Shown: piece by piece, positions 1 through 21,596 of the stretch | Layout of the letters: each line of letters opens with the position of its first letter | Position numbering within the stretch: the first letter of the stretch is position 1 | Source: Sipunculus nudus | Lineage: Eukaryota; Annelida; Sipuncula; Golfingiida; Sipunculidae | Reading direction: 5' to 3' | DNA: 64,000 bases | Assembly (NCBI GenBank): GCA_026874595.1 | Contig: CM049321.1 | Span: 46,803,797-46,867,796 of the forward strand | Notes under the pieces: generated by a model | What the model saw: the letters and a program-made list of their open reading frames with translations, nothing else | What the model was told of the DNA's origin: nothing | Databases searched by the model: none | Made by a program: the position numbers and the translations under genes

Positions 1-249
1 TTCAAATAATATAACAATTTCAAGTCAGCAGAACTTTCAGGAGGTATCACTAGAATATGTTTTGGAATATGATAATAATGACTAACACTAGGCAAATTAT
101 TGTCCATAAGAAAATCTTATTCTGATGATGAAAGCGGAAACGCAATAGTTAATGAAAATAAATGTGAAGCATGTAATAAAAATTTGTAACAATTAGATTG
201 ATGTCTTATATCTATAATTTGTTTGTTTTCCCATCTTAATTCTAATCAG

Positions 250-288
250 AGCCAAGTACATCCGTATTCTCCCATACAACTGAACAAG
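250..288 (+). CDS. Stalk microexon A1 (39 nt)
   Basis: Acceptor TCTAATCAG, donor AAG/GTAAAT. With the phase-1 G of the preceding exon it reads EPSTSVFSHTTEQ, a variant of the array consensus EPSTTVYSDTTEQ. It is the first stalk exon visible; earlier exons are presumably left of the window. Confidence 0.7.
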
Positions 289-3200
289 GTAAATTGTACC
301 TCCTACATCTTAGCAGAACTTATAATACATTTTGCCTTGAACAATCCTCGTCTGTTTGCGATTTATTTGACACCCTTGTATGATAAAATATTATAATTTA
401 CAATGAAGTGAATGAAATGCTCAAATCATATAAGAATGTCAAGTGAGCACAATTTTAAGCAGGTAGCAACAGGATACTTATTGCACTACATTTAATAATG
501 GCAAGAAAAAGACTTTGCCTTTCAACTGCAATTAATTTCCCATAGTTTTTGTTTAATATTACCCTTTCTAATAAATAACAATAACATCAATTTGCTTTTT
601 CTTTCCTGCAAATTTTTACAAGTAGTTTCTTTTACATGTATTAGCTACTTAACTCTTTTGATTCTTTTCCAACGACAACAGTATACTCCGGTACACTGCA
701 AACGCTTCAGTAAAAGTAAATGTTGTGAAGCGTGCTATATTTTTTCATTAGATTTTTGTTAGGTAAATTGAACCTTCAGCATTTTAGCACACGTTATAAA
801 ACACTTATCCTCAAACAATTCCTCCTCTGTATGCAAAAGATCGAATTTATTTAAATTATTTCATATTTCAAATGATACATCAATTTCAGGTTAGCAGAAC
901 TTTCAGGAGGTATTATTAGAACATGTTTTGAACATGATAATAATGACTAAAAATATGCAAATTTTTGTCCATAAAAAAATGTTATTTTGATGATAATAGC
1001 GAAAACCCAATAGTAAATGTAAACATTTGTGAAGAATGTTATAAAAAATTGTTATTATTGGATTGTTGTTCTGTATGAATATTTTATTTGTTTTATCATC
1101 TTAATTCTAATCAGAGCCAAGTACAACCGTATACTCCGATACAACTGAACAAGGTATAATTTACCTCCTGCATTTAATTAGAACTTATTATACAATTGGC
1201 CTCAAACAATCCTTATTTGTTCGTAATTTTATTTGATATCCTGGTATGATAATATATTACACTTTTCAATGAAATGAATGAATTGCCATAATCATATAAG
1301 AATCTCAAGTAAGCACAATTTTAAGCAGTTAGCAACAGAATAACTATTTCACTACATTTAATAACGGCAAGATAAAGACTATGCTTTTCAACTGGAGTTA
1401 ATCTGTCAGTTTTTTATCAGCAATTTATCATCTTTGTTTAATGTTGCCCTTTCCACTGGATAACAATTATATAAATTTGTTCTTTTTTCTACAGATTTTT
1501 TTAGTACAATTATAAATGATTACAAATGACCATGATGACTGCAGTTTATTTGCCGTAATGTTTCTTTACAGTCAAATTAATTGTTGTTTTCTAAGAACTT
1601 TTTTCATAATTTTAAAAGTTACAATTTCTGAAGAATATGAGAATTATATAAATTTGGCCGCTTGGCCTTTCTAAAAAATGATATAATTATTATTAAAACA
1701 ACAAATATAACGCCTAGTGCTGATATTAACGCTAACGCATTAGTAAATGTAAATATTGCGAAGCGTACTATATTTTTTATATTTACATTGTCGTTTTACA
1801 CGTATAACTTCCTTTTCTATTTCTTTCTAATCAGAGCAAAGGACAACCGTATACCCTGATACAACTGAACAAGGTAAATTGTACCTCCAGCATTTTATAA
1901 AACATTATAGAACACTTAGCCGCAAACAATATCTCATCTGTTTGCCTAGAATCGAAATATGTGTAACTTAATTTATTCCCTGGTACTCTTTTATAACAAA
2001 GTTTACAATTATGTTATTGGAATGTCCAGATGAAATATAAATTCAAGAAAGCAGAACTTTCAAGATGTATCACAATAATATGTTTTGGAATATTATAATA
2101 AAGACTAAAAATAGGCAGACAATTTTCCATAAGAAAATATAATTTTTATGATGTTAAGCCAATAGTAAATGGAAATTATTGCTGAGAATGTTAGAGAAAA
2201 TTGTTAAAACTGGATTGTTGTTTTATATGTATAACCTGTCTGTGTTTTTTAATTTTGATTCTAATCAGAGCCAAGTACAACTGTGTACTCCGATACAACT
2301 GAACAAGGTATATTGTACCTCCTGCATTTTGACAGAACTGAAAATACATTTGACCTTAAACAATCCATATTTGTTCGTAATGTTATTTTATATCATGGTA
2401 TGACAATATATTACATTTTGCAATGAAGAGAATAAAAAGCTTTAATCATAAAAGAATTTAAAGTAAGCACATTTTTGAGAAGGTAGCAACAGAATAACTT
2501 ATCCACTACATTTATTAATCGCAAGCTATAGACTATGTTTTCAACTTCAGTTAATTTGACACATTTTTTTACAGCATTTTATCATATTTGTTTAATGTGA
2601 TTGCCCGTTCTCATGAATAACAATTATATCAATTTGCTCTTTTCTCTGCATTTTTTTAGTCCCAGTATTTATTGTTCTTCGGATAATATACCTAGTGAAT
2701 GTATACACGCACTAGTAAATGTAATTTTTTGCGGAGCATATTTTATCAATGTGTTACAGGTAGGATGTTTTACATGTATTAGCCACTTCACTCTTTTGAT
2801 TCTTATCAGCGCCAACGACAACCGTATTCTCCGATACAACTGAACAAGGTATGTTAGCAAAAGGTATAAAACACTAACCCTCAACCAATGTCTCATCTGT
2901 TTCCACACAATAAACATATAATTCGTCATCAATTGTACCGCCTAGTGGTGATATTAACGCAAGGGCATCAGTAAATGTTAATATTGCGACGCGTTCTATA
3001 TTTTTTTAATCAGATTGTTGTTTATATGTTAAATTTCTTTTTCTATTTTAAATCTTATCAGAGCAAAGGACAACCGTATACGCCGATACAACTGATCAAG
3101 GTACATTGTACCTACAGCATTTTAACAGACGTTATAAAACACTTAGCCTCAAACAATTTCTCATCTGTTTGATTGGATTCAATTAATGTAACACATTTCG

Positions 3201-6200
3201 TACCCTGGAATTCTTTTATAACAGTGTTTGCAATTATGTGAATGAAATGTTTAAATGATCAATCAATTTCAAGTAAGCAGAACTTCCAGGAGGTATCACT
3301 ATTATATGTTTTGGAATATGATAAAAATGACTAAAAATAGGCAGACAATTGTCCATAAGAAAATATAATTTGTGTTATGTTAAGCCAATAGTAAATGTAA
3401 ATTATTCTTAAGCATGTTAGAAAAAATTGTTATAATTGGATTGTTGTTTTATATGTATAACCTGTCTGTGTGTTTTAATTTCATTATAATCTGAGCCAAG
3501 TACAACTGTGTACTCCGATTCAACTGAACAAGGTATATTGTACCTCTGCATTTTGACAGAACTTATGATACACTTGGCCTTTAAAAATCCTTATTTGTTC
3601 GTTATTTTATTTGATATCCTGGTATGATAATATATTACATTTTGCAAAGAAGTGAATATAATGCTCTAATCATATTAGCATTTCAGGTAAGCACAATCTT
3701 AAGCAGTTACCAACAGAATAACTATTTCACTACATTTAATAACGGCAAGAAAAAGACTATGCTTTTCAACTGCAGTTAATCTGCCATAGTTTTTTACAGC
3801 AATTAATCATCTTTGTTAAAATGTTGCCCTTCTACTGGATAACAATTATATCAATTTGTTCTTTTTTCTACAGATTTTTTTTTAGTACAAACAATTATTG
3901 CTCTTAAGCAAATATACCTAGGGGATGTGAAAAAGGAATAGTAAATTGGATTTTTGCAAAAAAAACTATAACAATGTGTTACAAGTAGGATGTTTAAATG
4001 TGTTACCCACTTCACTCTTTTCATTCTTATCAGAGCCAACGAAAACCGTATACTCCGATACAACTGAACAAGGTAAGCTGTTTAAGTATGGCGCATTGAA
4101 CAGAGAAAGCAGCAGACGAAGTTTAGTTTTACATTACAAATGACCATGATGACTGCAGTTTATTTGCCGTAATGTTTCTTTACAGTCAAATTAATTGATG
4201 TTTTCCAAGAACTTTTCTTCATAATTTTAAAAGTTACAATTTCTAAAGAATATGGGAATTATATAAATTTGCCAGTTATATGGACCTTTTTAGAGAAAGT
4301 TATATTTATTATTCATCAACAATTATAACGCCTAATGGTGATATTGACGCTAACGCATTAGTAAATGTAAATATTGCGAAGCGTGCTATATTTTTTTATA
4401 TTACATTGTCGTTTTACATGAATAACTTCATTTTCTATTTGATTCTAATCAGAGCAAAGGACAACCGTATACCCTGATACAACTGAACAAGGTAAATTGT
4501 ACCTCCAGCATTTTATTTAAACATTATAGAACCCTTAGCCGCAAACAATATCTCATCTGTTTGCTTAGAATCGAAATATATGTGACTTAATAAATTCCCT
4601 GGTACTCTTTTATAACAAAGTTTACAATTATGTTATTGAAGTGTCCAAAAAATATAAATTCAAGTAAGCAGAACTTTCAAGAGGTATCCCTATTATATGT
4701 TTTAGAATATGATAATAATGACTAAAAATAGGCAACATCATCCATAAGGAAAAATAATTTGTGTGATGTTATGCCAATTTGATGTAAATTATTGTTAAGC
4801 ATGTTAGAGAAAATTGTTATAATTGGATTGTTGTTTTATATGTATAACCTGTCTGTGTTTTTTTAATTTTGATTCTAATCAGAGCCAGGTACAACCGTGT
4901 ACTCCGATACAACTGAACACGGTATATTGTACCTCCTGCATTTTGGCAGAACATATAATACATTTGACCTTAAACAATACTCATTTGTTTGAAATTTTAT
5001 TTTATATCCTGGTATGACAATATATTACATTTTGCAATGAAGAGAATAAACAGCTCTAATCATAAAAGTAAGCCTAAAGTAAGCACATTTTTGAGAAGGT
5101 AGCAACAGAATAACTTATTCACTACATTAAATAATCGCAAGCTATAGACTATGTTTTTCAACTGCAGTTAATTTGTCATAATTTTTTACAGCAATTTATC
5201 ATCTTTGTTAAATGTTCGCCTTTCTCATGAATAACAATTATATCAATTTGCTCTTTTCTCTGCATTTTTTAGTCCCAGTATTTATTGTTCTTCAGAGAAT
5301 ATACCTAGTGAACGTATACACGCAATAGTAAATGTAAATTTTTGCGGAGCATATTAAATCAATGTGAAACAAGTAGGTTGTTTTACATGTATTAGCCACT
5401 TCACTCTTTTGATTCTTATCAGCGCCAACGACAACCGCATACTCTGATTCAACTGAACAAGGTAAGCTGTATCTTCGCATTTTAGCAGAAGGCATGAAAC
5501 ACATGGCCTCAAACAATTTCACATCCGTGTCCACATATTCAAAATACTCCCACTTATCTAATCCCCTGGTATGATTTGATTTTAAAATAATGGGGTTAAC
5601 ATTTTCAAATTATAAAAAAACTAGTTAAGTTAGACGAATTGAATAGAGGAAGCAGCAGAATAAGTTAAGTACTTCATAAGAAATGACAAGGATGACTGCA
5701 GTATATTTGCCGTGAAGTTTTCTTACAGACATATTCATTAATGTTTGACTTTCAATTTCGAATATTACAAAAAGAAGTTTTGTCAATCATCAATATGTAA
5801 AATTCGCCAAATGAACAGTAAACAATTCCTTACAGGATGACAGCCCAAATCTTATCCAATCTTATCACGCTCGTCATTAAAGGCACAATCCTCAGGGCAA
5901 CGCTCGCCATAATATTGGTACATCCAAAAGAGATGGACAGTCCAGGTTCTTTTTATCCGACTGAGATCATTACATGCAGAAAAATTAATGCGAGAAAACA
6001 GGATTGGTACAATCATTGAAAAATTACTATACTCTGGAGAGGCGTTCAACACTCGAGGCACAATATAAAAAACAATGAGTCTATATTGACGCACATGGAA
6101 TCATGGGTTCTTCAACTGAAAGTTTGGTACCCAGAAAGATCGCCCAAGGCAGTTTTGCCGCTGGTCATATTACTATAGCCAAACACTATCGAGCTCCGAG

Positions 6201-9034
6201 GATCCACCACAGGACACACGCCCAATCTAGGTTAATTGAGTCACACAAATACACTCGTCACGGCACCCCTCGACGTCCAACAAACCATTGGCTTACAGGG
6301 TTTTCACGGCAAATAGAAAAAAAAGTACAGACATATCATGCTTGTCTGCGGTATCGGTACCCGAAGATGTCACAGCAAAATGATATTCGGGACCCATGCG
6401 ATTAGCATATACTTGAAATTGATTTGGCCTGCAAGACTTCACCAAGGCTTTTTTTAAACCCACATCGACGGATTACCGGTTCGTTGGTTATTTCGACTCT
6501 ACTCTCATGTCCGTTAGAGGGATTCGCTTGGAAACTTTCAGACACTGACTGTCTGCGGAGAACTGTCACTTAGGGAACATATTCCATATTCTATTAGGGA
6601 ACATAACCAGATGATTGTTTTGATAATATATAATACATTTATATGGAGTATCGGGTTAGGAAATAAAGCGTGAGATCGTTGGTTAAAGAACACATCTCAT
6701 TTTTTTGTTAATTCCAAAGCAGGTTAAGAGCGTGTCTCTTTTTATGTTAATCTCGGAACAGTTTTAATTTCGTTGAAGGCGTCTCTGTTTGGCGGTCTCT
6801 CTAGTTCAGAGGGTTCGTTGCAGATTTCAAAGGAGGTGCCCCTGTGTAAGTTAGATTTTTTCAGGGTCTATCTCTAGAGGTATGTCCATATTTATATTCA
6901 AACTGTAATCGATGGTCGGCGTAATTGGAATTGGTGAATGGGCAGAAGACGAGCAAGACAATGCTCGACACAAGTGGCCGTCCAGCGTTCTGATTAGGTA
7001 CAGACAGGCGATATCAGCAGTCCGGGGACTGGTCTGATGGTGTCACGGTGAAGACAGCTGAGATGTGATGTCTACAAGCGTTAATAGTCGATGTCTGTGG
7101 AAGGAAACAAACGATTAATCTGTAAAGGTCATCAGAGGGAGTATGGCATATCTGCCGAAGGACTGGTAAATCTGTCGATGTATACCTGTTGTGAACACTT
7201 CTATGAACAGACCAGGGATTTTATTTAAACGCTTTATTGTAGAGGTACATGATATTGCAATGTGAAAGCTTATTCTGCTACCTATAACTGGATGATTCCA
7301 GGAGACATCAGCTGTAAAAGACTGTGATTCAACGCCGAGAAAGAGAAGCGATGGGTGAACTGTGTCAAACGTGTATACTTCAGCGAGTAATTATGGGTTA
7401 TTGGAGATCCATGTGTATAAAGACTGAATGTACTGCACACACAACGCGAGCCACTAAATTAGGCAAACAGTGTTACATCCCGGTATCACGTGTGCGTGAT
7501 GGTCATGATGGTCATTACTAGTAACAGAGTAATTGGAACTTTGCCGTATACTGTCATTAATGGACTCAGTGTATATTTATGTGTTATCCCCAATGTTCGT
7601 TTGTAAGAAGCGCCTCTACAGAGAATGTGAATAATTTCTTTATTTTACATAACAATTGTTTTGTTAAATCATGTCTTATTTTCTTTTTGGTATGTAGTTA
7701 TGATGAGTTCAACCTGTTGGTTTGACTTTTAAGAGAACCTGGACGTTCACATCTTGACCGGTGTGACACTGACCCTCTGGCCTCTCAGCTAATCAGTATT
7801 GGACTCTCCCCTAGACCCATGACAACCTTAGACAACTACACCAAGCGCGCTGACCCAGGAGTTTCTGACCCAGATTTCCTGATTCCATACTATATACCAG
7901 TCCTGACGTCATACCTACTGACCGACCTTGGCCCATCGTTCAAATACACTAAAATACAAACTCTGGACACGCCTCCAGAGGTAAATGTATGACAATCAAG
8001 CAGAATGGGCGCTGTCCCTGGAGGCTAGCGTATATGTGCCACCACAGGAACCGGTCAAGACAAATCTCACTGATTTACGACTGCACTGACTTCAACCCGA
8101 AGAATATATTTCGGTTCCTACTTCTAAGTTAACATCACAGTTCTCTGGTGACAACGACCAGATAGTGGCTATACATTTCAAATGCGCCTAATTTGCCATG
8201 AAGTTTCTTGACAGCCTTTCATCATCGTAAGCTTTTCTAAAATATAAACATAAAATGCTTGTTTTCACTGGATTTCTATTTTAATTCTACTCAGAAGCAA
8301 AGACAACCGGTTACTACGCTACAACTGAGCAAGGTAAGTTGAACATACACCATTGAAGCAGAAGGTATAAAAAATTGCCTCAGCAATTTCAGATACGTTT
8401 GCAAAGATTCAAATGTGTGTCATTTATTAAATACCCTTGAGCGGCATGATTACTATTAACTTCTACAAAGATGTGAAAACCACATGCCATTTTCAAGTAG
8501 GCAGAATTTTAAGTAGATAGCAACAGCATAATTAATGCACTACATTAATATCGACCAGATGAATGTTATGGTTTCAACTGCAGTTAATTAACCGTCAAGT
8601 GTCATTACTGCCTTTTACAATCATTATTATTCTTAAGTAGAAAAATGGTAAAAATTTGCTCGATTGCTCTACGATTTTTTATACAAGCAATTACTGTTCA
8701 TACTGTTCATCTAGTGGCGATGTTAACACGCAATAGTAAAAGTAAATTATTGCAAAGCTTGCTATATATAATAATTGGATTGTCCTTTTAGATGTATTAC
8801 TTGCTTATCATTTTTATTTGCCTGCTTGTTCTGCATTTTTATAAATACTATTTATTGCTCATATCGATTTTTTCTCAGAATCATCGACAATTGAAACAAT
8901 GACGATCTCTGAAGAAGGTGAAGTTTATCTTTATTTTACCTTAACTCATAAACAAACATGATAAGTTGTAGTGTTGATAACGCAAATACAATATGTAAAT
9001 CATAGATTAATATTCTTGTAAATTATAATTATTA

Positions 9035-9069
<35 letters not shown>

Positions 9070-11595
9070 ATACATTTGCGTAGCGGATTCCAGATATAAA
9101 CAAAGGAAAATTTTGAAGAATATTAATGTTAATGCCATTCAATATTTTTTTTACTGTGAATAGTCGATCTTTTTTTCTTTACGATCAAATCAAACTCAGA
9201 ATATTTTCTATTCGAGTTCATTTACACAATAGAAATTTAAACATCTTGTGATACTACATTGTAGATATTCCATGTGACCAAAGCGCTGATGGTAAGCTGA
9301 TGATCTTTATCTCTTTGGAAACACATATAGTCTTCAGCTTGAGTAAATAGGATAATCTGATAATAGGACGTAGCCAAGTGAAGGCATGAGAGGTCCTCGG
9401 TTCGTTTTTAATGACAAAATTGGCAAACCTTGATTGGACTTTGCACATGAAATATTAGGAATAACACATCAATCTTGTCGTATGATATATGTTTATACTC
9501 CTTCAACAGACAGCGATTGATATATCCTTAATAAAACATGTGAATACGTAAATCATTATCACTAGCTGTTTAGAACAAGCAGTTTTGACATCTGATAATA
9601 TTTTTCTCATTCTTTGTTTATTGTAAATCAGTGTATATTTACCACATACACACTATGTAGTTCATTTTGTTATTACTCATGAAAATGTTTCAATCAAAGT
9701 TGATAAATATGGAAAAAAAAGAAAGATGGCGGATGAGCTCCTTCAACAACTAAGAATGTCACGAATATGAGTGTTTTGCCATAACGTCCAAAAACAAAGG
9801 GTAATTGAGAAGGATATGAGAAGCTCAAATAATGATTTTTTAATATTCCCAGAAACACTTCTTGTCACTGAATAGGCACTATTGATATCCACAAGCATTA
9901 AGGTTTTTGCACCATTAAGTAATTTACGTTGTGCCATCAGGGTATGCATGTGTACTTACATTATATAAAAATGTTGTTTCGTCGGTGCGGATGAAGTGTT
10001 ATTAAGTATTTTTTTTTTTTATTTTAAATGTAAAATCCAATGATTGACATAATTGTAATTCATTACACGTATATATTAGTATCATCATATGTCACATTTA
10101 GATTATGTTCACATTTTTGTGCAGAAGGGAAGCAACCATTGCCTTATTTAAGACATGGATGTACAGCTAACGAAGAAGGTAAACATAATTTGAAAGTTTC
10201 AAATACTCACATAATGTAATACCTCGGAGAGAAACTTAATTGTAAACAAATCAGATTACCTCACATTTTATATTGCCAGTCCTTTTCATATCAGTAAATA
10301 TTAGAATTCTAGGAAGTACATACATTCTCAGAAAAAAAGATGGACTGAGGTCTTAAATAATTATAATAATTATAATTTAAATGTAATAATTATAATTATA
10401 ATAATTATTATGATTATAGTCATTATATCTTTATATTAAGAGTGAATAGTGGCTATTTTTAACAGGTTCTTTGTGAACATAACCCAGATTTCCATATATT
10501 CAGGCTCTAGAATGGACCAAGTTTACCTCATTAGGGCACCCCTCTTGAAACAAGCTCAACAATAATATCGTTCATGCTCCTATCCGAGCGGTAACGATAT
10601 AAAACAAATTTGATTGTATCCATTAGACTGATTTTAATTATAAAATATAATGAATATATGTCATATATTTCATATACATATATTTCTGTATTTCAGAAAT
10701 AAAAGAAATTGTGAACCTTGAAACATTTCTGGATATGTTCCTTGGTATCAGGGCCAGAGGGTACACTGTACTAAAGGCAGCCATTATGTGTAAAATACAA
10801 AACAGGTGGAAACAAATACTTGGGGTCGTCTTCAGAAATTGTGTGATTAATGACGCAAAACAACCTAGAACACGACATGCAGAAGAAAATCTAATGCTAC
10901 AAATGAAGCACCGAGTTGATAAAGAAAATATCAAACAGGAACGGAGAAAAACTAAGAAAGGATGTGAATTCTGGACTGTTATAAACAATCAACCTTGTAT
11001 TTTCTGCAGCGGCGCGCACCCGAGAGGTATTCCTCATATGCCTAATCTAAAGAATTATATCTTTGATCAATTTGGAATATCAACATTTAAGCTTGCATGG
11101 AGTAATTTTTGCCCAAAATTAATACTAAATCACCAAGACTGTACTCCTCGTTTTAACAAGTACATGCCTAATAAAAGCACACAGGACATTGATGCTGCTG
11201 TAAGTTCATATAACAATTTGATGGGGAGAGGGTTTAAGATGCAGGTTTGTGAATGGAGAGAATGGTTAAATCGGGCAAAACGGGAAAATATCGGAAGTAA
11301 AATTAATCAATATAAAAGGGACCGTGTACGTCAGACGGAGTGTGAAATGCAGGTGATAAGTAACAAAATTAAAACCGGTTTCTGGAAAAAAGACGATTGT
11401 TTGTATGAGACTGATGAGGAAACCGAAAGCGACAAAACGCTCATCGGCACCAAAGCCTTGCGCCCACCACAGCAACCTTTGCAATCAGGCTCCGGGGCAC
11501 AAATGCATCGTCCCCAAGCAACGTACAAAGAAAGAAGAAACACACCCGCCCCACACGCCTTAGTTTTATGTCAATCATCCGCCTCACTTTACTAA
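250..11595 (+). CDS. Gene A: microexon-encoded Thr-rich stalk plus AID/APOBEC-like deaminase (5' partial, spliced)
   Basis: Exons inferred by eye: 250-288, 1115-1153, 1835-1873, 2269-2307, 2810-2848, 3062-3100, 4034-4072, 4453-4491, 4883-4921, 5423-5461, 8295-8333, 8879-8917, 9265-9291, 10125-10178, 10697-11595. Each internal exon has a pyrimidine-rich acceptor ending in AG and a GT donor (mostly AAG/GTAA). All lengths are multiples of 3 and every junction is phase 1, so the chain reads without a stop into the terminal exon. It gives 183 stalk residues (12 units of 13, then 9 and 18 residues) and a 299-residue deaminase domain. The Thr/Ser/Pro-rich stalk looks mucin-like, so secretion or surface display is plausible, but no signal peptide exon is in the window. 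Function is inferred: deamination of nucleic acid, possibly in defence. No transcript evidence was available. Confidence 0.65.
669..705 (+). pseudogene. Dead stalk microexon A2
   Basis: Sequence resembling a stalk exon (CAACGACAACAGTATACTCC) has lost its acceptor through a 5-nt deletion relative to copy B, where TTTTCAGAGCC remains (27624 onward). The 3' half is degenerate and has no donor in either copy, so it was probably already dead before the duplication. Confidence 0.6.
1115..1153 (+). CDS. Stalk microexon A3 (39 nt)
   Basis: Reads EPSTTVYSDTTEQ in phase 1, the consensus unit. Acceptor TTCTAATCAG, donor AAG/GTATAA. Thr and Ser make up five of its thirteen residues. Confidence 0.7.
1835..1873 (+). 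CDS. Stalk microexon A4 (39 nt)
   Basis: Reads EQRTTVYPDTTEQ in phase 1. Acceptor TTTCTAATCAG, donor AAG/GTAAAT. It is the first exon of a three-exon higher-order block that recurs as the 4453, 4883 and 5423 exons. Confidence 0.7.
2269..2307 (+). CDS. Stalk microexon A5 (39 nt)
   Basis: Reads EPSTTVYSDTTEQ in phase 1. Acceptor GATTCTAATCAG, donor AAG/GTATAT. Counterpart of the 4883 exon in the higher-order repeat. Confidence 0.7.
2810..2848 (+). CDS. Stalk microexon A6 (39 nt)
   Basis: Starts CG rather than AG, so the junction residue becomes Ala: APTTTVFSDTTEQ. Acceptor TTCTTATCAG, donor AAG/GTATGT. Only 213 bp separate it from the next exon, the shortest intron in the array. Confidence 0.7.
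3062..3100 (+). CDS. Stalk microexon A7 (39 nt)
   Basis: Reads EQRTTVYADTTDQ in phase 1. Acceptor AATCTTATCAG, donor AAG/GTACAT. Confidence 0.68.
3494..3532 (+). pseudogene. Stalk microexon A8 with broken acceptor
   Basis: The body still reads EPSTTVYSDSTEQ and the donor AAG/GTATAT is intact, but the acceptor is AATCTG instead of AATCAG. The nearest AG lies 2 nt inside and would give a 37-nt exon out of frame. The same change is in copy B (30408-30446), so it predates the duplication. Confidence 0.65.
4034..4072 (+). CDS. Stalk microexon A9 (39 nt)
   Basis: Reads EPTKTVYSDTTEQ in phase 1. Acceptor CATTCTTATCAG, strong donor AAG/GTAAGC. Confidence 0.7.
4453..4491 (+). CDS. Stalk microexon A10 (39 nt)
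   Basis: Reads EQRTTVYPDTTEQ, identical in protein to the 1835 exon, 2618 bp upstream. Acceptor GATTCTAATCAG, donor AAG/GTAAAT. Confidence 0.7.
4883..4921 (+). CDS. Stalk microexon A11 (39 nt)
   Basis: Reads EPGTTVYSDTTEH. The last codon is CAC instead of CAA, so the donor context is CACG/GTATAT. Acceptor GATTCTAATCAG. Confidence 0.66.
5423..5461 (+). CDS. Stalk microexon A12 (39 nt)
   Basis: Reads APTTTAYSDSTEQ in phase 1, counterpart of the 2810 exon. Acceptor TTCTTATCAG, donor AAG/GTAAGC. It is followed by a 2.8-kb intron carrying an unrelated inserted block. Confidence 0.7.
5830..8180. other. Inserted block of non-intron-like sequence
   Basis: Array intron sequence stops near 5830 and resumes near 8180 (TTTGCCATGAAGTTTCTTGACAG resembles the array motif TTTGCCGTAATGTTTCTTTACAG). 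The 2.35 kb between is more GC-rich and contains no convincing stalk exon. A 100-codon frame at 6103-6405 and one at 7324-7521 match nothing I recognise. No terminal inverted repeats or LTRs were found. A decayed coding segment lies at its right end. Probably a mobile element or captured gene fragment of unknown type. Confidence 0.5.
7726..8190 (+). pseudogene. Decayed unrecognised coding segment
   Basis: An ATG-less frame is open from 7726 to 7989 (88 codons), including SPRPMTTLDNYTKRADPGV and YYIPVLTSYLLTDLGPSFKY. Protein-like sequence continues in the +1 frame from 7991 (DNQAEWALSLEASVYVPPQ) to a TGA at 8087-8089, and beyond it (QPEEYISVPTSKL) to about 8190. One frameshift and one internal stop therefore separate what looks like a single older protein of at least 150 residues. 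Both lesions are shared with copy B (34640-35104), so they predate the duplication. I do not recognise the family. Confidence 0.5.
8295..8333 (+). CDS. Stalk microexon A13 (39 nt, diverged)
   Basis: Reads EAKTTGYYATTEQ in phase 1, more diverged than the upstream units. Acceptor AATTCTACTCAG, donor AAG/GTAAGT, a near-perfect donor. Confidence 0.7.
8879..8917 (+). CDS. Stalk microexon A14 (39 nt, diverged)
   Basis: Reads ESSTIETMTISEE in phase 1. It keeps the 39-nt length and Thr/Ser/Glu content but little sequence identity to the consensus unit. Acceptor GATTTTTTCTCAG, donor AAG/GTGAAG. Confidence 0.65.
9025..9067. repeat. ATT microsatellite
   Basis: Imperfect (ATT)n tract inside the intron between the 8879 and 9265 exons; also in copy B near 35940-35981. 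Confidence 0.9.
9265..9291 (+). CDS. Candidate 27-nt microexon
   Basis: Acceptor ACTACATTGTAG, donor ATG/GTAAGC. In phase 1 it reads DIPCDQSAD with no stop and keeps frame. It is not a stalk repeat and carries a single Cys. The pyrimidine tract is weaker than in other exons, so this is less certain. It is identical in copy B (36179-36205). Confidence 0.5.
10125..10178 (+). CDS. Linker exon before the deaminase (54 nt)
   Basis: Reads EGKQPLPYLRHGCTANEE in phase 1. Acceptor TTTTTGTGCAG, donor AAG/GTAAAC. It ends with the same EE-G junction style as the 8879 exon and joins the terminal exon 518 bp downstream in frame. Confidence 0.65.
10697..11595 (+). CDS. Terminal exon: AID/APOBEC-like zinc-dependent deaminase domain
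   Basis: Acceptor TGTATTTCAG; the frame is open from the splice site (E-I-K-E-I-V) to TAA, 299 residues, with no ATG before residue 14, as expected of a spliced 3' exon. Predicted strands at 23-35 and 38-50 precede the motif RHAEENLM (His61 at 10876, Glu63), then EFWTVINNQPCIFC (Cys101, Cys104). Deaminases of this superfamily use His and two Cys for zinc and Glu for proton transfer. The 36-residue HAE-PC spacing is longer than usual for APOBECs. A strand (STFKLAWSNF) and the segment NLMGRGFKMQVCEWREW match the later APOBEC pattern of a GL..L...G helix, a strand and an aromatic. The tail (~235-299) is acidic, then Pro/Gln-rich. It could instead belong to another deaminase clade. Assignment rests on motifs read by eye. 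Confidence 0.6.
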
Positions 11596-11867
11596 GATGT
11601 AACCAGAGTGGGGCAAAAAGTTACAAAATTATTTTTTTAAATTAACTTTCTTATATATTAACATTGGATAATGTTGCGTCACATGAAACAATACATTCTC
11701 TTAATTGAATCCATTTTCACCACAGAATGTTAGACCGCAAGATGCATATGCAGCGATCATCTAAAACGGCTCTGGACTTGCTACAAACAATGGTCAAATT
11801 GATTTAAATGGCTTATGATATCAGCTGAAAAAAAAGCTTCGACCTGTGTCACTTATTTTAATTACAA

Positions 11868-11873
11868 AATAAA
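11868..11873 (+). terminator. Candidate polyadenylation signal, gene A
   Basis: AATAAA 273 nt after the stop codon; preserved in copy B at 38532-38537. No other canonical hexamer was noticed nearer the stop. Confidence 0.4.
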
Positions 11874-11969
11874 CAGCGCTCTCCGTGTATTTATATTGGT
11901 CTGGTGGATGAGTGTTTGCCGTATTACAATTACAATATCAGATTTACACGAACGCGTAACATAATCCTT

Positions 11970-12260
11970 CGCACCTGCTTCTGTGGGTCAGGGGTAGAGC
12001 ACAGCACCCAAAGCCGTTCAAATCTCAGTCGAGGCGGTAAGATTTTCACAGTCGGCCAGCACCCAATGTAAGCGCTCTGCGAGCTAAATTGAAAGGCTGG
12101 TCCCCACAGCCGTGAGTCATTCACAAACCAGTGCGTCTCTGGGAAATTCCTCGGTTTCATGTCCAAGCAATGGGGATGATTACACACCATGGACCCACCA
12201 GTGCGGTAGAAACCTGACCTGGGTAACAACCGGATGCATAACTTTTATGATAGGAAGCGA
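11970..12260 (+). mobile_element. tRNA-derived SINE-like element
   Basis: Contains a Pol III-like A-box region (GGGTCAGGGGTAGAGCAC) and a B-box-like CGTTCAAATCTC about 35 nt later, followed by a conserved body with AATGGGGATGATTACACACC. A related element is at 16375-16640 and an inverted diverged one at 12690-12935. Family name not assigned. Confidence 0.55.
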
Positions 12261-12689
12261 GTTCTACCGCCCTGCTAAATAGTTCCACACCGAAATGGAA
12301 TTCTGCAGATGTACATTCTAAAACTAATAATTAAATGAGAAAGCATTAAAAATGGAGGTGGTTACCACTTCTAAATTAGGAAAAAAAGGGAAAAAAAAAC
12401 GCGAATATATCTAAGCATCGGCTGCTTACAAATATCATCGATATTATAAACAAATACAATTATAAAGAAACACCATTTTTATTGGAAACTCCTTGTTTTG
12501 GACAAGACTGCAATAGTTGATCCTGTAACAGAGGTGTTTGTGCACGAGAATTCTGGTAGAGTGTTTTACAAATATGAAACGAAATGGACAATTACGCTTT
12601 TCTAAACATTTGCAATGGCTATACGTCTTCACTATATTTCTTTTATTGGAAGTGACCGCCTCCAATTTTGTAATTCTAACTAAACTACC

Positions 12690-12935
12690 TATGCATACAT
12701 CTGCAGAATTCCATTCTGGTTTCGGACTACGTAACAGGGCAAAATCACACGCTTCCTCTCATTGTATATCCCAGCATAAACAACGCCCGATGACTACTGC
12801 ACCTGCTGGCCCTGGGTGCGTAATCGTCCCCATTACATGGAAAATATTACTGTCTCTACTGAGAAACGAATTCAAGATCTCTCGACTTTGAGTCACGTGC
12901 TCCACCCCTGTGCATCAGAAGCCGGTTAGGTTGCA
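12690..12935 (-). mobile_element. Inverted, diverged copy of the same SINE-like family
   Basis: The reverse complement aligns to 11975-12316: shared pieces are GGAATTCTGCAGATGTA, AATGGGGA.GATTAC.CACC, and CAGGGGT.GAGCAC followed by CAAAG.CG. Together the two arms form a large imperfect inverted repeat with about 370 bp between. An open frame across it (12538-12891) is probably incidental. Confidence 0.5.
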
Positions 12936-13710
12936 CGTATTTATATGTAGACAGTGCTAGCTATTATGCGAGAACTGTCACAATTACAGATTCTTTATGT
13001 ACCTATTATTCCAAAAATGTTAAGTGATATGATAATTCATTTGATCCATGATATTCCAGTGAAATTCTTTGGTATAGAATGCCATGACAAGAAATAAAGG
13101 GAAGGTCGTTAATTTCTGAAGATAATAAAAATTTTAAGATTGTAATGCCTAACATTTTACGGTCTCTCTTCAGAAAGCGAAATAATAAAAGGAATATGAA
13201 CAGACGCACTACATTGTTTAAATGTTATTAATAATTTTCTAAGTCTTACCTTCATTTTAAGTTCGGGAAACTACGGAGGAAAGTCCCAAAACGTAAACAT
13301 GTGGCACCTCACGTCCGCATACCGATTTTTTTTTAAATCATACCCGCCCCTATGTAAAATAATTCAGCCAAAAAGACATATAATTCGCTTTAGTCCGCGG
13401 AGGTTGTGAGCCCAAGATCAATATTAATTAAAATACAGTTACACCGAGAGAATTTACAGTTGATTAAGAGGGCAATGTCTAAATATTAAGTTCGGAACGT
13501 AATAATAAAATAAACTGTGATGTAAATATAAGTATCGGTGTCAGTAATTCTTCTTAAATGGATTCTCACCAGTAATAGTTATATGATCAGCTCATTTTAT
13601 ATTAATTTATTCATACCAAAAATCCATCAAAATGTAAAATATCTTTTACATAAAGTTTCCGAAAGCAAACGGTATTAAAAAAAGATGTTTTAATTGTATT
13701 ATTGCTTTCG

Positions 13711-13935
13711 TGGTGGCGGTGATGGTAAAGATGGCGGTAACGGTGATGCTATTGGTGATGCTAGTGGTTATGATAGTTGTGGTTATAGTGGTAGTGGTGA
13801 TGGTGGTGACAGTGGTGGTGATGGTAAGTAACTTTCTTCTTTCTTGGTATTAGTGGTGATTGTGGTAACGGTTAGAACCTTTCCGCTTTGATGCTACTAG
13901 TGGTGAAGGTGATAAGGGTGGTGGTATTGCTAGTA
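13711..13935. repeat. GGTGRT-type minisatellite
   Basis: Degenerate hexamer array (GGTGAT, GGTAGT, GGCGGT). Copy B (about 40375-40650) has extra units. It can be read as a Gly/Asp/Ser-rich peptide, but no gene context supports that. Confidence 0.8.
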
Positions 13936-14137
13936 ATGCCAATGATTGTCGGCGGAGGTGGGTTTACACTACAAGTATCAAACTGATACTGTGTGATAGC
14001 AGCTCTCAACATTTTCCTTTTCTTAGTATTGTATATTTCCATTACTGAGTTTATTAAAATACCTTATAATTAAAACAACGATGTATCATACTTGTTTATC
14101 AATACAATGTATAGTGTAAATGTGCATGGTTAACGGT

Positions 14138-14144
<7 letters not shown>

Positions 14145-14173
<29 letters not shown>

Positions 14174-14189
14174 ACGAGATGGTTGTACA

Positions 14190-14229
<40 letters not shown>
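14145..14229. repeat. GT and TA microsatellites
   Basis: (GT)n at 14145-14173 followed by (TA)n at 14191-14229. Both differ in length from copy B (40835-40855 and about 40874-40913). Confidence 0.9.
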
Positions 14230-14232
<3 letters not shown>

Positions 14233-14499
14233 TTTGTTCATCGTCGGGGTCTCTCATGATTATAAACCTACAGACGTCTCATTCAATGATTAGATAATAT
14301 ATTTTCGTTGATTTGTTTCATTAATTACATAAATCCGTGAACACTCAGAATTTACCAGTATAGTTAAGAACACTGATAAAGAAAAAGTACCATTTGATAG
14401 CCTATCACTGTCCTTCCGTTATCTTTGCCGGTAAAATCTTGACCACTCTTTTCGGTTGTTCATTAGTAGTCAGGTCACGCCAAATCTTAGCATATTGGA

Positions 14500-14571
14500 G
14501 TTATAAATGTCCAGGAGCTGGATTTGTGACCAGTGGCGCCAATTTATCTTCAAGGGTGGGGGGATAACTCC

Positions 14572-14603
<32 letters not shown>

Positions 14604-14654
14604 ATATCGCATGTATGACACATTTCAAATACATTAGCACCCATATGACACATT

Positions 14655-14700
<46 letters not shown>

Positions 14701-15108
14701 ATTACATTTCAAATATACTGCAATAAAGTAAAAGGTTTTAGAAAATAAGGTATTGTGTTTCCAGTATATAAATTATTCAAAACTAGTGTTAGATGTAATA
14801 TTTCATAGTAAACTCACAAATGACACAAAAGTCTATAATTCTATTCATTAATATTTTTATTTGCAATATATAAATATTATTCTCTGAATAGTGTGGGGGG
14901 GGGATGATTACATTCACTACTGGATATATACCCCCCTTCCCCCTCCCCCTATATTGACGCCCCTGGTGGGACCGCGTCGTTTGGTTTCGAATCCCGTTAT
15001 TCCGCGCTGAGAAGTCTTGGCCAAAGTCTTAACCATAATGATGCACTCTCTCCACCCAGAAGTGAATGGGTACTGATCGTGTATAAGCGTTCAGGCACAT
15101 GTGGAACG
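14500..15108 (+). mobile_element. SINE-like element interrupted by a MITE
   Basis: After the MITE insertion at 14531-14965, sequence resumes with a B-box-like GGTTTCGAATCCCG and CTCTCCACCCAGAAGTGAAT, a motif style common in invertebrate tRNA-derived SINEs. Copy B has lost about 115 bp of this part (around 41690). Confidence 0.45.
14531..14965. mobile_element. hAT-type MITE, copy A
   Basis: Left end CAGTGGCGCCAATTTA and right end (reverse complement) CAGGGGCGTCAATATA form terminal inverted repeats of the CAGNGGCG type common in hAT elements. The left 8-bp target duplication is TTTGTGAC (14523-14530). The right flank here is changed (GTGGGACC) but is intact in copy B. The interior holds CA and TA microsatellites (14572-14602, 14656-14697) and C-rich tracts, with no transposase. 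Confidence 0.7.
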
Positions 15109-16374
15109 GATAACCCTAACACTTCCACAAAGGAACGTGTTAGTGTTTATGTTCAAAGAGAGCCCAGAAAAGCTGCAAGAAAAAATAGTCTGAAAGACCA
15201 AAGAGAAACGTGTAAATTCGGATGAGACTCTCTTAGTGATATCAAAACATACACAAAAACTGTTACCTTGTTCAACTAATAAATTGTTCTACGGACCCCC
15301 GAGCCAGAAATAAAAAGTAAGGGGGCGTTTTTTTTGTAACCATGAATTTAAAATACGCGAAAACGTGCGGCATTCCTGGTGGGAATGGTGCCAAACGGGA
15401 TTATCCACTTTAAATCAGACTTTTTCTTAACCCGGAAGTTTCGAGTGCAGTGTTCTCCATTTAAAAGCAATCCCCGATTTTGATCTTGATATACATAAGC
15501 AGACACAGGTTGGTTTACTACTGACCTATATTGTCTTCTATTTACAGGGGGCGTAGATGCATTAAAACCCAATGCATAAGTGTATAGCAGGTGCTAACTA
15601 GTTCATCTAACCTCTAGGAAACTCTTTTATGGTAACAGCGTCGGAGATTAAGTTATGATATTTGGATATATCGGTATAATATTTTTTAAAAAGGCTTGCG
15701 AACACTTACTGAGACCCTCACAAAAGTTCCCCGCGTTCGCGGATTGGTTAGGGAAACATCTCGATGACAAATATAACAATACACATTTGCCTGTAATTAG
15801 TATTTTAGTATATGTTCTGTTGTTAATTTAAATAATTATGTTTTTTAAAGGATAAATAAATACATTTTATCATATATTGAATATAGTTATTTTTATCCCA
15901 CTGTAAAGGTGCAGGCATCCCATTTAAGTAAGCTTCCTCGTATACATGACAGGTGGCGCCAACTGTATTCATGTATTCGTAACATACAACAATATATTTA
16001 TCTCTGGAGTGGTTTTACATATACGCCTGATATTAATACATCCTTGATACACTTACCAGGTGCATAAGTTTGGTGGTGACATATGTGATCGTTTCTTTGT
16101 AGCGTCCAACCATAAATTTGTTTGGTTAAAACATGCACATATATCAAGATGTGTTGATGAATCAACATGATATTTATTAATCTTGGTAAGCCCGGTCGTA
16201 GAAAGCATTTATCTCAGAAGTTGATAAATGAATCAAGAGATGCATTTATTTCAGGAGTGGTATGAGGTAACGCGCCTAAAATGTGCATGTCCGTACTTCT
16301 ACGAATGGGTTAAATGTAACAAGACTGGTGGCGTCACCTAATATCAATTTCATCAATCGACAAGGGACAATGTT
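15109..16374. other. Non-coding intergenic sequence
   Basis: No convincing exon, RNA gene or structured repeat seen. The frame on the minus strand at 15348-15572 shows no recognisable domain. Confidence 0.5.
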
Positions 16375-16640
16375 CTAGGCGTAGTGCACAATGCTCAAAG
16401 CCGGGAGATTTCGAATCTCAGCCGAGGCGGTGAGATTCATTACGGTCGGGCTGATTCATGATTTTTGCAGGAGCTCTTTGCAGGCTTACTGGGAAGGCCC
16501 TGACCCACTGCCGTGTTTCACTATCAAAAAGTGCGCCTTTCGGGGGTTATACACACATAGACCGGAGACAGATAACAGTACAAGGATGCCCTCAGGTGCT
16601 CCTGTCTACACATACAGCTTCGTGCAAGTATAGGAAAGGG
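16375..16640 (+). mobile_element. tRNA-derived SINE-like element
   Basis: Contains GATTTCGAATCTCAGCCGAG (B-box-like), closely matching the element at 11970 (TTCAAATCTCAGTCGAG), then a common body. Present in copy B near 42955-43220. Confidence 0.5.
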
Positions 16641-16723
16641 ACACACTTAAATTTACTCAAACAATGATCTACACCTCAGTGACGGTGGAACGTTGATACG
16701 AATTGGAGGGAGGAGGAAGAATG

Positions 16724-16731
<8 letters not shown>

Positions 16732-16779
<48 letters not shown>

Positions 16780-17035
16780 TAATTAAATAATGCAAGTGAA
16801 ATTATCATATTCTTACCTACCACTCACAAGCTCACTTCCACACCCATCCACAAGCGCATTGACTCACTTAACACATTGACTCACAAGCTCATTCACTCCC
16901 CCCCCCCCTTACTTAGTCTAAAGCTGGCTCACAAGCATTCAATTGTTAGCTCTCTCATATGCTCACTCAATCACTCATTCACAAGTTGACCCCCAGCTGG
17001 TTCACCCACAAGCTCTGAAGCTCACTCGCTCAATC
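16732..17035. repeat. TA microsatellite and CTCAC-rich low-complexity tract
   Basis: (TA)n at 16732-16779, then from about 16815 a degenerate array of CTCACAAGCTCA-like units. A short GC-rich palindromic stretch follows (17115-17165). All are in copy B at about 43305-43600. Confidence 0.8.
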
Positions 17036-17219
17036 ACTTGCCGACTACATACATCCATCAAAACACAATTACACACGCAGTCCTTCATAAACACAGGGTA
17101 GTAACAAAAGCGGATACGGGGGAGGGTCCAGGGGTACCGCCCCCTTTTTTCAGCCGCCGTAATACTGGCGCCGCTCACCGGATTAATTACCTGTACCACT
17201 TCTGAATGTCTTCCCCAAC

Positions 17220-18669
17220 TTTTATACAGTCATGCTGAGAAACAGGCCTTCTTTGGAAACAGATCCAAATGAAAATGAGATAACTAATATGTTTAATTCA
17301 AAACCCTTGCACAAAGTGTGTTTTGTAAAAATGTACATTATACAATAAATATATTGTAACTTAGCTGGACTAAGACTATTTTTATCGTTACTTGGACATT
17401 GATATACAATATGAAGTAAAGATAAATTGGTAATGTTATTTTCCTATTGACTATTAATTGCCAGTGTATCCTGGAAATTCAGCGGAGCCTTGCCATACCT
17501 TTCCAATGACGCATTGGACCCCTGTGTAACACACAACCCCGTACCAGATTTACAATTGATTAAAAAGACATCAATAAAACAGTAAACTAAGGCCAGCTCA
17601 AGAAGAGCAAGACTGCACAATCCCAGTTGACACGGAGGCCATTTTAACTATTTCGATACATGATAGAAAGTTTAGGTAGGTTTCCACGAGGGTTCTACTG
17701 AGTCCTATTACAATGGTCGTTGGACAATGTGTATTGTTCCTGCTGAGCTCCTTGCTTTAACGCGAGAATTGTTTCTTAGGTTCTTTTGATCTTTTGTAGA
17801 TATATTTTTAAGTTCAGCCTTTTGTCGTCTGCGTATAATAATCTAGTTGCTGGAATCAGAACCAGAGCTCCACGCGATCTTCTATTGTCCATTGCTGCCA
17901 ATGCTCGCGTGTCTTTCATATCCTTATATTACCGGCACAAGTCAAAAGTTTACTGGTAACCGCGCATACAAAATAAAATCACGTAGCAAAACCATTCGCA
18001 TGCAGTGGAGTCTATAAAAACTGATTTATTAATAAGGTGGATTAACTCATAATTCACAACATATATTCATCATATTTCTGGTATTTTGTTGAGCAAGCTT
18101 TTAGAATTGAATAAACTGATGTATTTATGACGTCTTTGGAGCTTATAATCTAGTGTATACTCGGATCAAATGTTCCCTATATCCTCTAGTTTTATATTGA
18201 TATTTAACTCCAACGGAAACAAAAGGATATTTACCCCTTAGACAGAGCTTCTGTACATTGTAGTATAAAAAACTAATACTAGGTCTTCACGTTTTTGCAT
18301 TGAAAGTTGTATTTATATGGAAAGTTTGAATTAATATTAATATAACAACCATCATGCTGGCATCCCTTAATTATTTTGATGTTCTTAGGCACTAAGTGCA
18401 GACGGATGACAATAATAAAAAGGGGGCCAACTGAAGAGTGCTTAAAATGAAATATAACATTGTGTTATTTACCTTAGAGTTGTTACTAGATGGATAGATT
18501 ATCGCCATCCTGGTAGTAAACCCAGTCCAGTCTTGATATGGTAATTTGCCAATATAACTTACATATCTTCGTTTAAAATAATAACCGTGAGAAAACAGCT
18601 AAGTTTCAAAAGACCGTAAGTAGGTAACTTCCGCAGATGAAGTTAAATATGCTATTATTTATGGCCTTA
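17220..18669. other. Non-coding end of copy A
   Basis: No exon or recognisable RNA found. Short hydrophobic reading frames at 17712 and 18448 lose their ATG in copy B, which argues against conserved signal-peptide exons here. Confidence 0.5.
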
Positions 18670-19546
18670 AACACAATTCATAAGTTCTTTGTTGTTAAGG
18701 AAAACAAAACCTAACGCATTCCTTTGTTAAAATAGAAAAAAAAGGACGCTGCTCTCCATTTCCCCCATGTTCTTCGAAAAATGAGGAAATATATTTTTAT
18801 AAGCTGTGTTACAGTGACCTTCTTGTAAATAATTATTTTTAAATAAAATCACGTTTGCTGTGTCAGTTTTTAAAGCGCTTACTGTGTCAATTGTACCGGA
18901 TTTGCTTAGATATCTGAAAAGGCACACTCTTCTTACAAACAGTTTTGTTTTATATCAATCGATTATTTCCTGTGCAAGTAAAGTACAAGTAAGTTCAAAA
19001 TATGCCGAATAAAATGTATTTTCTTTCGGGTTCCCTTGCATTGTTTATGCTGATGGCCCAAGGGTGGCGGGTTTCCGAGACAGCCGAACGTAGCTATATG
19101 CAATCATTGACAAAGGAATGACGCCAAGACAAAAAAAAATATTATTCAGTTGATCTAATCTTGATTATTTTGTGCAAATAAACTATAAGCTATATTTATC
19201 CCAATATCCAACAGGTAAAAACTCAAGTAAAACTGTTACAAGTAAAATCATAAAAATCGTAGTAAAATGAATTTCTTTTGGGCTCCTTATGCTGTTTATG
19301 CTGATTGCTCATGATTGGCGCCTTTACATTGACATTTTGTTGCACATGCCCTTTTGCTAAAGTTTCATGATTCCTAAATTTCAAAAGCCCTCTTCTTGCA
19401 GCCGATTTTTTTTTTCAATCTTTGTCGGTAAACACACAAGTCAATAAACATCAATCAGATTTATCTAGCTTTATTTATGGATAGCTAAAATCAGTCAAGT
19501 GCTGTTTGTTTACTGGACATATTTTCAAGATAATGATTCTCTTCAG

Positions 19547-19585
19547 GTCCTCCTTCCTTCATACCAGGCCCGAAGACTAATCAAG
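19547..19585 (+). CDS. Pro-rich microexon S1 (39 nt)
   Basis: Acceptor ATTCTCTTCAG, donor AAG/GTAAGT. In phase 1 it reads GPPSFIPGPKTNQ. It is the most upstream exon found in the spacer; a signal-peptide exon should lie further upstream but was not identified. Confidence 0.6.
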
Positions 19586-20192
19586 GTAAGTAGTATTTCG
19601 CATATAAAAAAAATCATAAACGAAAAAGGAGTCCACAATTTCTCAATTGTTAAGCAAGCAAAACGAAGTGCATTCCTTTAATAAAATAAAATGGGCAGTT
19701 ATTTTTTTAACTCTAAACTTCGATCAGTTGTTGTGCCAAGATTTAAAGCGCTTGATTTGTTTAAGTGGATCGGATTCGCTGCAAGTGTACGTCTAGATAA
19801 TGTATATTTTGATACAATATTAAAACCAGTTATCTTGACACATGCAGGCACGTATTACTGGAAGGGACTATCACATTTTTGTTGGAACAATGTTATAAAC
19901 TTGTATTTTTTTACCAATAATTTTAATAACAGTTAACAATCGTATCGGCTTTGAAATCCGAATAGGAACATTTCATCCCGAATATATGGTAAAAATCTAT
20001 ATACGAAAAAAATCATTTTGCTAAAGTTTCTTGATCCCTCAGTGTGTAATGCTTTTCTTCTTGTAGTCAGGTGTTTTTCAATCTTTTTTAATATATAAAT
20101 CAATAAACTCTACATCAACCAGATTCATGGAGCTTAATTTATGATAAGGTAAAAATATGTCATTTGCTCTTTGTTTACTGAATCATCTTTAG

Positions 20193-20231
20193 GTCCTCCT
20201 TTATCCATACCAGCACCAAAGACTGATCAAG
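20193..20231 (+). CDS. Pro-rich microexon S2 (39 nt)
   Basis: Reads GPPLSIPAPKTDQ in phase 1. Acceptor CATCTTTAG; the donor AAG/GTTATT is weak, so this exon may be dead or rarely used. Confidence 0.5.
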
Positions 20232-21596
20232 GTTATTCTTCTCTCGCATGTTGAAACAAACTGCCAAAACGAAAAGGAGTCTATAATTTATCAGTTTAAT
20301 TCTTTATTCCCAATTATTGCAAAATACCAAATAATCTGATGATTTATTAATCCTTTATTAAAAGAACAATACAACCAGAATATTAATCCCTTAAAATGCT
20401 ACAAATTATATATGGCTTGAGCACAATGCAACAGTTCTTTGTTTTACAATAAGCAAAATGTAGGGCATTCCTTTGTTAAAAATAAAAAAGACACTAGAAG
20501 TTCTCCCATGTTCCTCGAAATATAACGCCCTCTTATTTTAGTCTATATTTCAGTGCGGTTCATGCATTATTTTTTAATTCTAAGCTCCGATCGATTCTTG
20601 TGCCAAGTTTAAAGGCTTGAATGAATTTTTATTTCTAAAGTCTTCGCGGATGGAAATGTGGAAAACACGGTTAACTGTGTATTGGTATCTTGATTAAATG
20701 TCTCGTGCGAAATCGGTGAAAGGACAAGAAATATCAATGTTTGACTTAGACAGACGGCGATAAAGACCCAACAAGTACCGGCCAGATAAATTATATCATC
20801 ATACTTGTTTATCTGAGCTGCTGTGTTCACTGATACTGGAAGGCAAAGTAACAATTTTAGTTGGAGCAGTGTTGTAAAATATGTAATGATATGCTTTGTA
20901 AATTATTCAATTACTTTTTGCACTCTTTGTACTGTTTATGCGGATGGTCTATGATTTGCGTCTTTCCGAGACCGCCGAACAGTATGTTGTTTCATAAATA
21001 AGACTTTCTTCAATGTCTTTGGACCCTAGTGTTTTTGACAAGGCAATAGTAATGCCAGAAAAAAAAATTCATGACTTTATTGAATAATATCATCCGTTGA
21101 AATGCATGTTTATTCTTCTGTCTCCGCTGATGGAAATGTGGCAATCATTGTAGACTGTTTTATGATGTTCTGGACTAATTGTCTTATGCCAATCAGTGCT
21201 AGGACAAAACACTATGTCTCACTTAGGCGGACGGCGGAATAGACTCTTCAAGTACAGGGGAAGATAAAATATATCATCATATTGTTTCAAATCAATTATT
21301 CGAACTCATATGACCACATATTACTGGAAGGCAATGTATCAAATCTTGGTTGGAACGATGTTATAAATTTTATTGATTTTTACTGATTCTTTTATCAACA
21401 GTATGGAATGGGGTTAGCTGTGTTATCCGAAAAACGTACATTGGAATGTTATCTTTGTTATAACAAAAGCTATATACGAATATACAATTTTGATCAGTTT
21501 AACGAATCCTCAATAGTACATGCTTTTCTATCTTGAAAAAAAAATAATGTACTCCTTGTTTATCATGTACTCCTTTTAAAGATGACGATTTTTCAG

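Follow-up and report, generated by a model that had tools for sequence, protein, structure and literature searches.

A predicted AID/APOBEC-like deaminase at the C-terminal end of a putative Pro/Thr/Ser-rich microexon stalk in Sipunculus nudus

The DNA analysed here (the window) is a stretch of 64,000 nucleotides from Sipunculus nudus (G000:C16:46803797-46867796; positions below 0 lie to its left). It holds an AID/APOBEC-like zinc deaminase exon, toward which a long chain of Thr- and Pro-rich microexons appears to lead, within a locus that is present in two tandem copies (Table 1). The DNA has a G+C content of 35% and, by eye, carries GT/AG introns, C2H2 zinc-finger frames and transposable elements. 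Our computations, which drew on a genome of 1.43 Gb in 153 contigs, establish the fold of the deaminase, its catalytic motif, a genome-wide family, a conserved splice into the deaminase exon, and a conservation of the microexons that is restricted to the exons themselves.

Table 1. Predicted features of the locus and of three related genes
Feature	Position	Strand	Details
Terminal exon, AID/APOBEC-like zinc deaminase	10697..11595	+	299 aa, counting the codon split with the previous exon
Terminal exon landmarks (residues)	HAE 61-63; PCIFC 100-104; Cys 149, 185, 216, 235
Penultimate exon EGKQPLPYLRHGCTANEE	10125..10178	+	54 nt, phase 1-1; relaxed splice criteria only; xGCTx homologue in 5 of 5 C3/C4 relatives
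Predicted exon DIPCDQSAD	9265..9291	+	27 nt, phase 1-1; relaxed criteria only
Possible exon ESSTIETMTISEE	8879..8917	+	39 nt, phase 1-1; weak donor GTGAAG; by eye
Last well-defined Thr-rich exon EAKTTGYYATTEQ	8295..8333	+	39 nt; strict splice criteria
Thr-rich array, copy 1	250..5461	+	39-nt exons at 250, 1115, 1835, 2269, 2810, 3062, 3494, 4034, 4453, 4883, 5423
Defects of Thr-rich array, copy 1	3494; 672		3494 TG acceptor, probably dead; 672 degenerate
Pro/Ser-rich array, copy 2	19547..26055	+	First exon 19547-19585 GPPSFIPGPKTNQ
Further Pro exons, copy 2	20193-20231, 21597-21632, 22124-22141, 23076-23111, 23612-23629, 26038-26055	+	Last one reads GLPSLP
Thr-rich array, copy 2	26496..35247	+	15 rows with >=26/39 matches
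Dead deaminase exon, copy 2	37621..38214	+	Premature stop after HAE; ~270-bp deletion takes out PCxxC
27-kb tandem duplicate	1..45234	.	[-8300,18650) versus [18650,45234)
Three tandem C4 genes (L015, L018-L020)	G000:C4 39949000-40025200		Signal peptide, degenerate trypsin-like, thioredoxin-like and AID/APOBEC-like deaminase parts

A sequence-only reading of this DNA had placed RHAEENLM, EFWTVINNQPCIFC and NLMGRGFKMQVCEWREW in the order expected of the AID/APOBEC-like fold, and all three lie in that order within the single open frame of the terminal exon, between an acceptor, TTTCAG, that ends at 10696 and a TAA codon at 11593-11595. The frame is not a chance one, because the stop-free stretch around it runs to 313 codons at this G+C content and relatives in the same genome match it at E 9e-16 to 2e-4. 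Its zinc motif, of the form H[AV]E...PCxxC, reads H61-A-E63, x36, P100-C101-x2-C104 and is invariant in all eight rows of an alignment of relatives (A3), while C185, C216 and C235 are invariant in all six rows of another (A1). The proposed fold was upheld by structural comparison: the fold is that of a deaminase whose strands 4 and 5 have a helix between them, and the structural matches listed are AID/APOBEC throughout. The Pfam models SNAD1 and SNAD4 gave no match to the window protein at E up to 1, and NCBIfam gave one row, far under its cut-off. One search of the PDB by sequence found nothing and another found five rows at E 0.12-1.6, which we take as chance. Prokaryote and viral contigs searched with A1 gave 25 and 14 pattern matches, none of them confirmed.

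The deaminase belongs to a family within this genome. A search with the window domain returned nine rows (14 candidates scored), namely the domain itself, two pieces of the dead second copy, and six other loci, of which C3 holds two, C4 three and C16 one. When that C16 relative served as query, four more loci appeared on C2 (126 of 2532 candidates scored, hence a lower bound), and the other rows covered the query start only, reaching no further than residue 93, a stretch that is a repeat outside the domain. The genome contains at least ten other deaminase loci. Invariant across A3, from which L033, L034 and L008 were left out, are the H, A, E, P, C and C of the motif together with C90, C185 and W190; at L033 and L034 a stop is reported inside the match, yet HAE and PC..C share one open frame. 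One C2 relative (L035) scored 19.0 bits with NAD1, 18.8 with SNAD4, 17.4 with APOBEC_N and 14.7 with SNAD1, and the C16 relative (L026) matched SNAD1 best, at 15.7 bits; these scores are all under cut-off, and the sub-cut-off matches of both proteins are all to AID/APOBEC clades, with the exception of one chance row. No AID/APOBEC clade profile matched L032 or the relatives on C3 and C4.

The predicted exons at 8295, 8879, 9265 and 10125 all have phase 1-1 and keep the frame of the terminal exon, so that the Thr/Ser-rich microexons claimed to stand in frame with the deaminase were indeed found within 8295-11595. The exon at 8879 fails both strict and relaxed splice criteria, and that at 9265 has a possible counterpart, DGQRCNDQ, at L004. 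Support for the predicted junction between 10178 and 10697, also part of the earlier claim, comes from the conservation of a small Cys exon upstream of the relatives' deaminase exons. A phase 1-1 exon with the motif xCTx lies 5' of the deaminase exon at all five C3 and C4 loci (GPTNKWNHDCTMDGK, GATNVWTHGCTIEKR, GATNVWTHDCTAEER and DMPPELDNSGCTISIN at four of them, DMPDELKPSGCTTSPN under relaxed criteria at the fifth), making six of six loci with the window included. At L008 this exon lies ~1.5 kb upstream of the deaminase exon, with weaker candidates in between. Five more distant loci have an RCxSS-type candidate, or nearly so, upstream of the deaminase exon, each picked by eye from Cys-bearing candidates only.

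The joining of the deaminase to the Thr/Ser stalk as a whole is consistent in strand, order and phase. This is a consistency of genomic sequence, and it leaves some room for an alternative that we regard as unlikely, in which two genes are neighbours here, one mucin-like and made of microexons, the other encoding an intracellular AID/APOBEC-like deaminase and starting on its own between 8.3 and 10.7 kb. Met codons early in the terminal exon would suit such a pair, as would the shortness and weak support of exons 8879 and 9265; however, the small Cys exon kept in the five nearest relatives requires a phase-1 exon upstream, phase 1-1 is maintained along the chain, and three relatives carry signal peptides (by eye).

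The stalk exons themselves are mostly 39 nt long and phase 1-1, of the EPSTTVYSDTTEQ type at 250-8333 and of the GPPSTISTPETDQ type from -14892 on, most ending in Q. A profile built from 17 units matched 44 in all, 26 in copy 1 (-14892 to 8333) and 18 in copy 2; three of the copy 1 matches, at -12712, -10300 and 672, have E above 0.001. The array is far longer than the span first noted, and GLPS exons of 18-36 nt come in addition to these 44 matches; the copy 1 counterpart of the Pro/Ser-rich array is found left of the window, as far as -14892. As a strand control, the same criteria applied over -15000..10700 gave 21 candidates on the plus strand and 2 on the minus strand, the 21 comprising three nested alternatives, one unrelated candidate (6865) and 17 distinct array units or likely so. 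Identity between exon copies is 84% for Thr units (14 of 15 used) and 78% for Pro units (8 of 11 used), compared with 42-57% for the flanks past the splice sites; selection on splicing could also explain this conservation. Units and their introns have spread together by duplication of blocks of ~0.4-1.5 kb. Pro, Ser and Thr make up 45% of 182 residues in the Thr units, where Ser and Thr come to 39%, and 54% of 104 residues in the Pro units, a composition in keeping with a Pro/Thr/Ser (PTS) domain.

That the locus is a duplicating one, as the sequence-only reading had it, holds insofar as the 27-kb duplicate is present; the second deaminase exon is dead, and a false duplication of haplotypes is possible. 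The copies are near-identical for 18 kb, then ~3% diverged over a further 8 kb, the change being abrupt near 10.1 kb: divergence is about one base per 1000 between 0 and ~10.1 kb and ~3% to the right of that point (97.5% identity over 15107-18669). This pattern fits both a real tandem duplication followed by exchange and two haplotypes placed in tandem by the assembler. Should the two copies be alleles, the deaminase has a segregating null allele. Diversifying selection between the deaminase copies was considered and rejected, as 16 of 22 changes alter the amino acid, against 80% expected (P 0.86), which is neutral in type.

The claim that this deaminase is secreted draws its support from three relatives on C4; the first exon of the window gene itself was not found. 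In all three of these tandem genes an exon opens, by eye, with a signal peptide (MARMVWPVVLTGLVVCVALSGGASA in one) and runs via a linker into a trypsin-like domain, which scored 23.8 bits in one copy (Pfam cut-off 20.6) and 17.0, below the cut-off, in another. This domain reads TALDC where active proteases have TAAHC and is, therefore, probably inactive; its exon was located at three places on C4 only and matched no solved structure. Next come two exons labelled thioredoxin-like by eye (Pfam gave no thioredoxin match); basic linkers and the CT exon lead from these to the deaminase. The thioredoxin-like exon ends in phase 2, or at a stop, as if the gene were split in two, a possibility countered by a conserved phase 2-to-1 exon of 32-33 residues with good splice sites that bridges the gap to the linkers in two copies. 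For the deaminase dN/dS is 0.30-0.33, and the trypsin-like exon gives 0.28-0.42. The C4 clade looks extracellular, and its genes are perhaps of interest equal to that of the window gene.

For the window gene itself, the recommended search for a signal peptide to the left met with no success, and several candidates were rejected. A signal-peptide-like frame at 12529-12891 adjoins an inverted repeat (by eye), and the signal-like frame at 18990/-7960 belongs to a recurrent repeat of the Pro-unit region in which it alone is open, the frames of the other members having been judged by eye. In that region (18990-26060) intronic sequence like a signal-peptide exon recurs, open in one place. A trypsin- or thioredoxin-like front end is likewise rejected, with no trypsin row and a single thioredoxin row (E 0.02) that lies downstream, at 45337, and is taken as chance.

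We consider it probable, from the sequence, that the window gene encodes an extracellular-type AID/APOBEC-like cytosine deaminase at the C-terminal end of a long Pro/Thr/Ser-rich spacer; an AID/APOBEC-like deaminase of a secreted-type clade is real as judged from sequence, and a PTS stalk is most likely. The whole microexon chain and the deaminase would form one transcript, and a signal peptide would be encoded to the left of the window, by a 5' exon past -14.9 kb. The spacer would consist mostly of 13-residue units, each encoded by a 39-nt phase 1-1 microexon, and would be linked to the deaminase domain through a small number of short exons that include two with Cys. Because its units are phase 1-1 cassettes, unit gain, loss or skipping could change its length without breaking the frame. 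We infer O-glycosylation of the spacer from its composition and from the relatives, and we also infer a role as defence effector. The spacer would keep the enzyme off a surface or in mucus, and the enzyme may deaminate cytosine in viral or other intruding nucleic acid that is single-stranded, either extracellularly or following uptake.

A number of results weigh against this interpretation. The sole Pfam match of the window protein is PF00383, at 17.7 bits against a cut-off of 25, and the AID/APOBEC models of Pfam did not match it; a genome search with SNAD1 listed no locus of the family; and among 5.8 billion proteins, searched with the single sequence (513 candidates) and with A1 (4069), none reached threshold. 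The deaminase exon of L008 is frame-broken, with HAE and PC..C in different frames, and C216 is absent from L026, L032 and L035 in A3. No convincing signal peptide or 5' exon was found in 40 kb left of the window, and the joining of microexons to deaminase is a prediction from the genome sequence. The C3 and C4 regions gave rows at chance level only with the stalk profile (E 2.4-7.4), so the stalk is not common to the relatives. Synonymous changes within exons are no commoner than chance predicts (12 of 50 changes for Thr units, 0.246 expected; 7 of 37 for Pro units, 0.281 expected), which speaks against selection at the protein level, and without a synonymous excess the stalk residues look loosely held, as in a spacer. 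Finally, four of the 26 copy 1 units are damaged, at 3494 (TG acceptor), 672 (truncated), -456 (AC acceptor) and -8505 (GA donor).

The last two of these points, along with the dead second copy and the neutral type of its changes, would also fit a decaying locus, with a stalk array of defunct repeats and an intact deaminase that is itself a recent relic. We think this improbable, since copy 1 retains a 299-residue frame with its catalytic and conserved Cys residues, and both splice sites are intact in 22 of its 26 profile matches (a 36-nt unit at -3877 being read with its own donor). The match to PF00383 as the only Pfam family, for its part, would suit a microexon chain that serves as an anchor or processing segment and a deaminase whose role lies outside nucleic-acid editing, as would be true of a nucleoside deaminase or of a binding protein without activity. 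Substrates are unreadable from sequence, but the uniformly AID/APOBEC structural matches and the two distant relatives that point to AID/APOBEC clades make this account improbable.

The catalytic domains of AID, APOBEC3A and APOBEC3G, which are intracellular enzymes without a stalk, are 8-14% identical to the window domain. Short symmetric exons in strings that code for Thr/Ser/Pro-rich stretches are familiar from the micro-exon genes and polymorphic mucins of schistosomes, a likeness in exon design; we know of no such protein with a C-terminal enzyme domain. The nearest parallel in kind may be SNAD, a secreted clade with an AID/APOBEC fold and extra Cys near the C terminus, to which the signal peptides of the C4 relatives and C185, C216 and C235 of the window protein may be analogous. 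However, no SNAD model matches the window protein, and neither a long PTS stalk, as in the window gene, nor trypsin-like and thioredoxin-like parts, as in its relatives, are mentioned for SNAD in the available part of PMC11004436, where the biological role of SNAD is called completely unknown and classic enzymes are given an HxE-PC spacing of 25-30, against 36 here. SNAD1 protein has been detected in nurse-shark plasma (PMC9207270, in part). Sea urchin and brachiopod AID/APOBEC-like enzymes (SpAIDL and kin) share the catalytic motif class and, in sea urchin, occupy several loci, some inactive; they differ in that the sea urchin enzymes have ~193-194 residues and match Pfam APOBEC_N, with no stalk described in the portion of PMC5956068 consulted. 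Three APOBEC3-like proteins are listed in the Aplysia immunome (PMC9334734, in part), and the excerpts of PMC13428168, PMC8195603 and PMC6466128 contain nothing on deaminase architecture. The earlier reading knew of no described protein that combines a deaminase with a mucin-like stalk, and none appeared in the literature searched, although the survey of Krishnan et al. 2018, outside that search, could describe such fusions.

Export signals in some of the related genes suggest editing enzymes that act outside the cell. It is tempting to go further and, as a tentative proposal, to see in this one animal an extracellular clade of AID/APOBEC-like deaminases whose front ends are interchangeable, being trypsin-like and thioredoxin-like in one branch and a length-variable glycosylated stalk in the window gene, and which would act as surface- or mucus-tethered editors of foreign nucleic acid; phase 1-1 microexons would then let splicing and unequal exchange tune the reach of the enzyme. 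A tethered mode of editing is not described for the AID/APOBEC family in the literature searched. The function of secreted AID/APOBEC-like enzymes is an open question, and a possibly tethered form, together with multi-domain secreted-type relatives that have signal peptides and extra Cys, makes extracellular nucleic-acid editing directly testable, in a case where the mutator would be physically separated from the host genome.

Rfam and tRNA searches gave no match. To the left of the window, plus-strand Cys-rich exons at ~-22240 to -21340 and ~-19400 (L010-L011) apparently form two tandem genes, the first matching no Pfam family and the second seen by eye only, and at ~-17900 to -17000 (L011) there is a minisatellite with long frames whose minus strand reads as a Thr-rich mucin-like repeat. 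Elsewhere, at G000:C3:95580672-95582904 (L022), each unit of a 93-bp minisatellite carries an acceptor, an open frame and a donor. Within the window lie an inverted-repeat element at 11980-12950 (by eye), minus-strand frames at 53100-55400, one of them like a retrotransposon integrase (by eye), and, at 56844-59528, a minus-strand cluster of C2H2 zinc-finger frames, internally duplicated.
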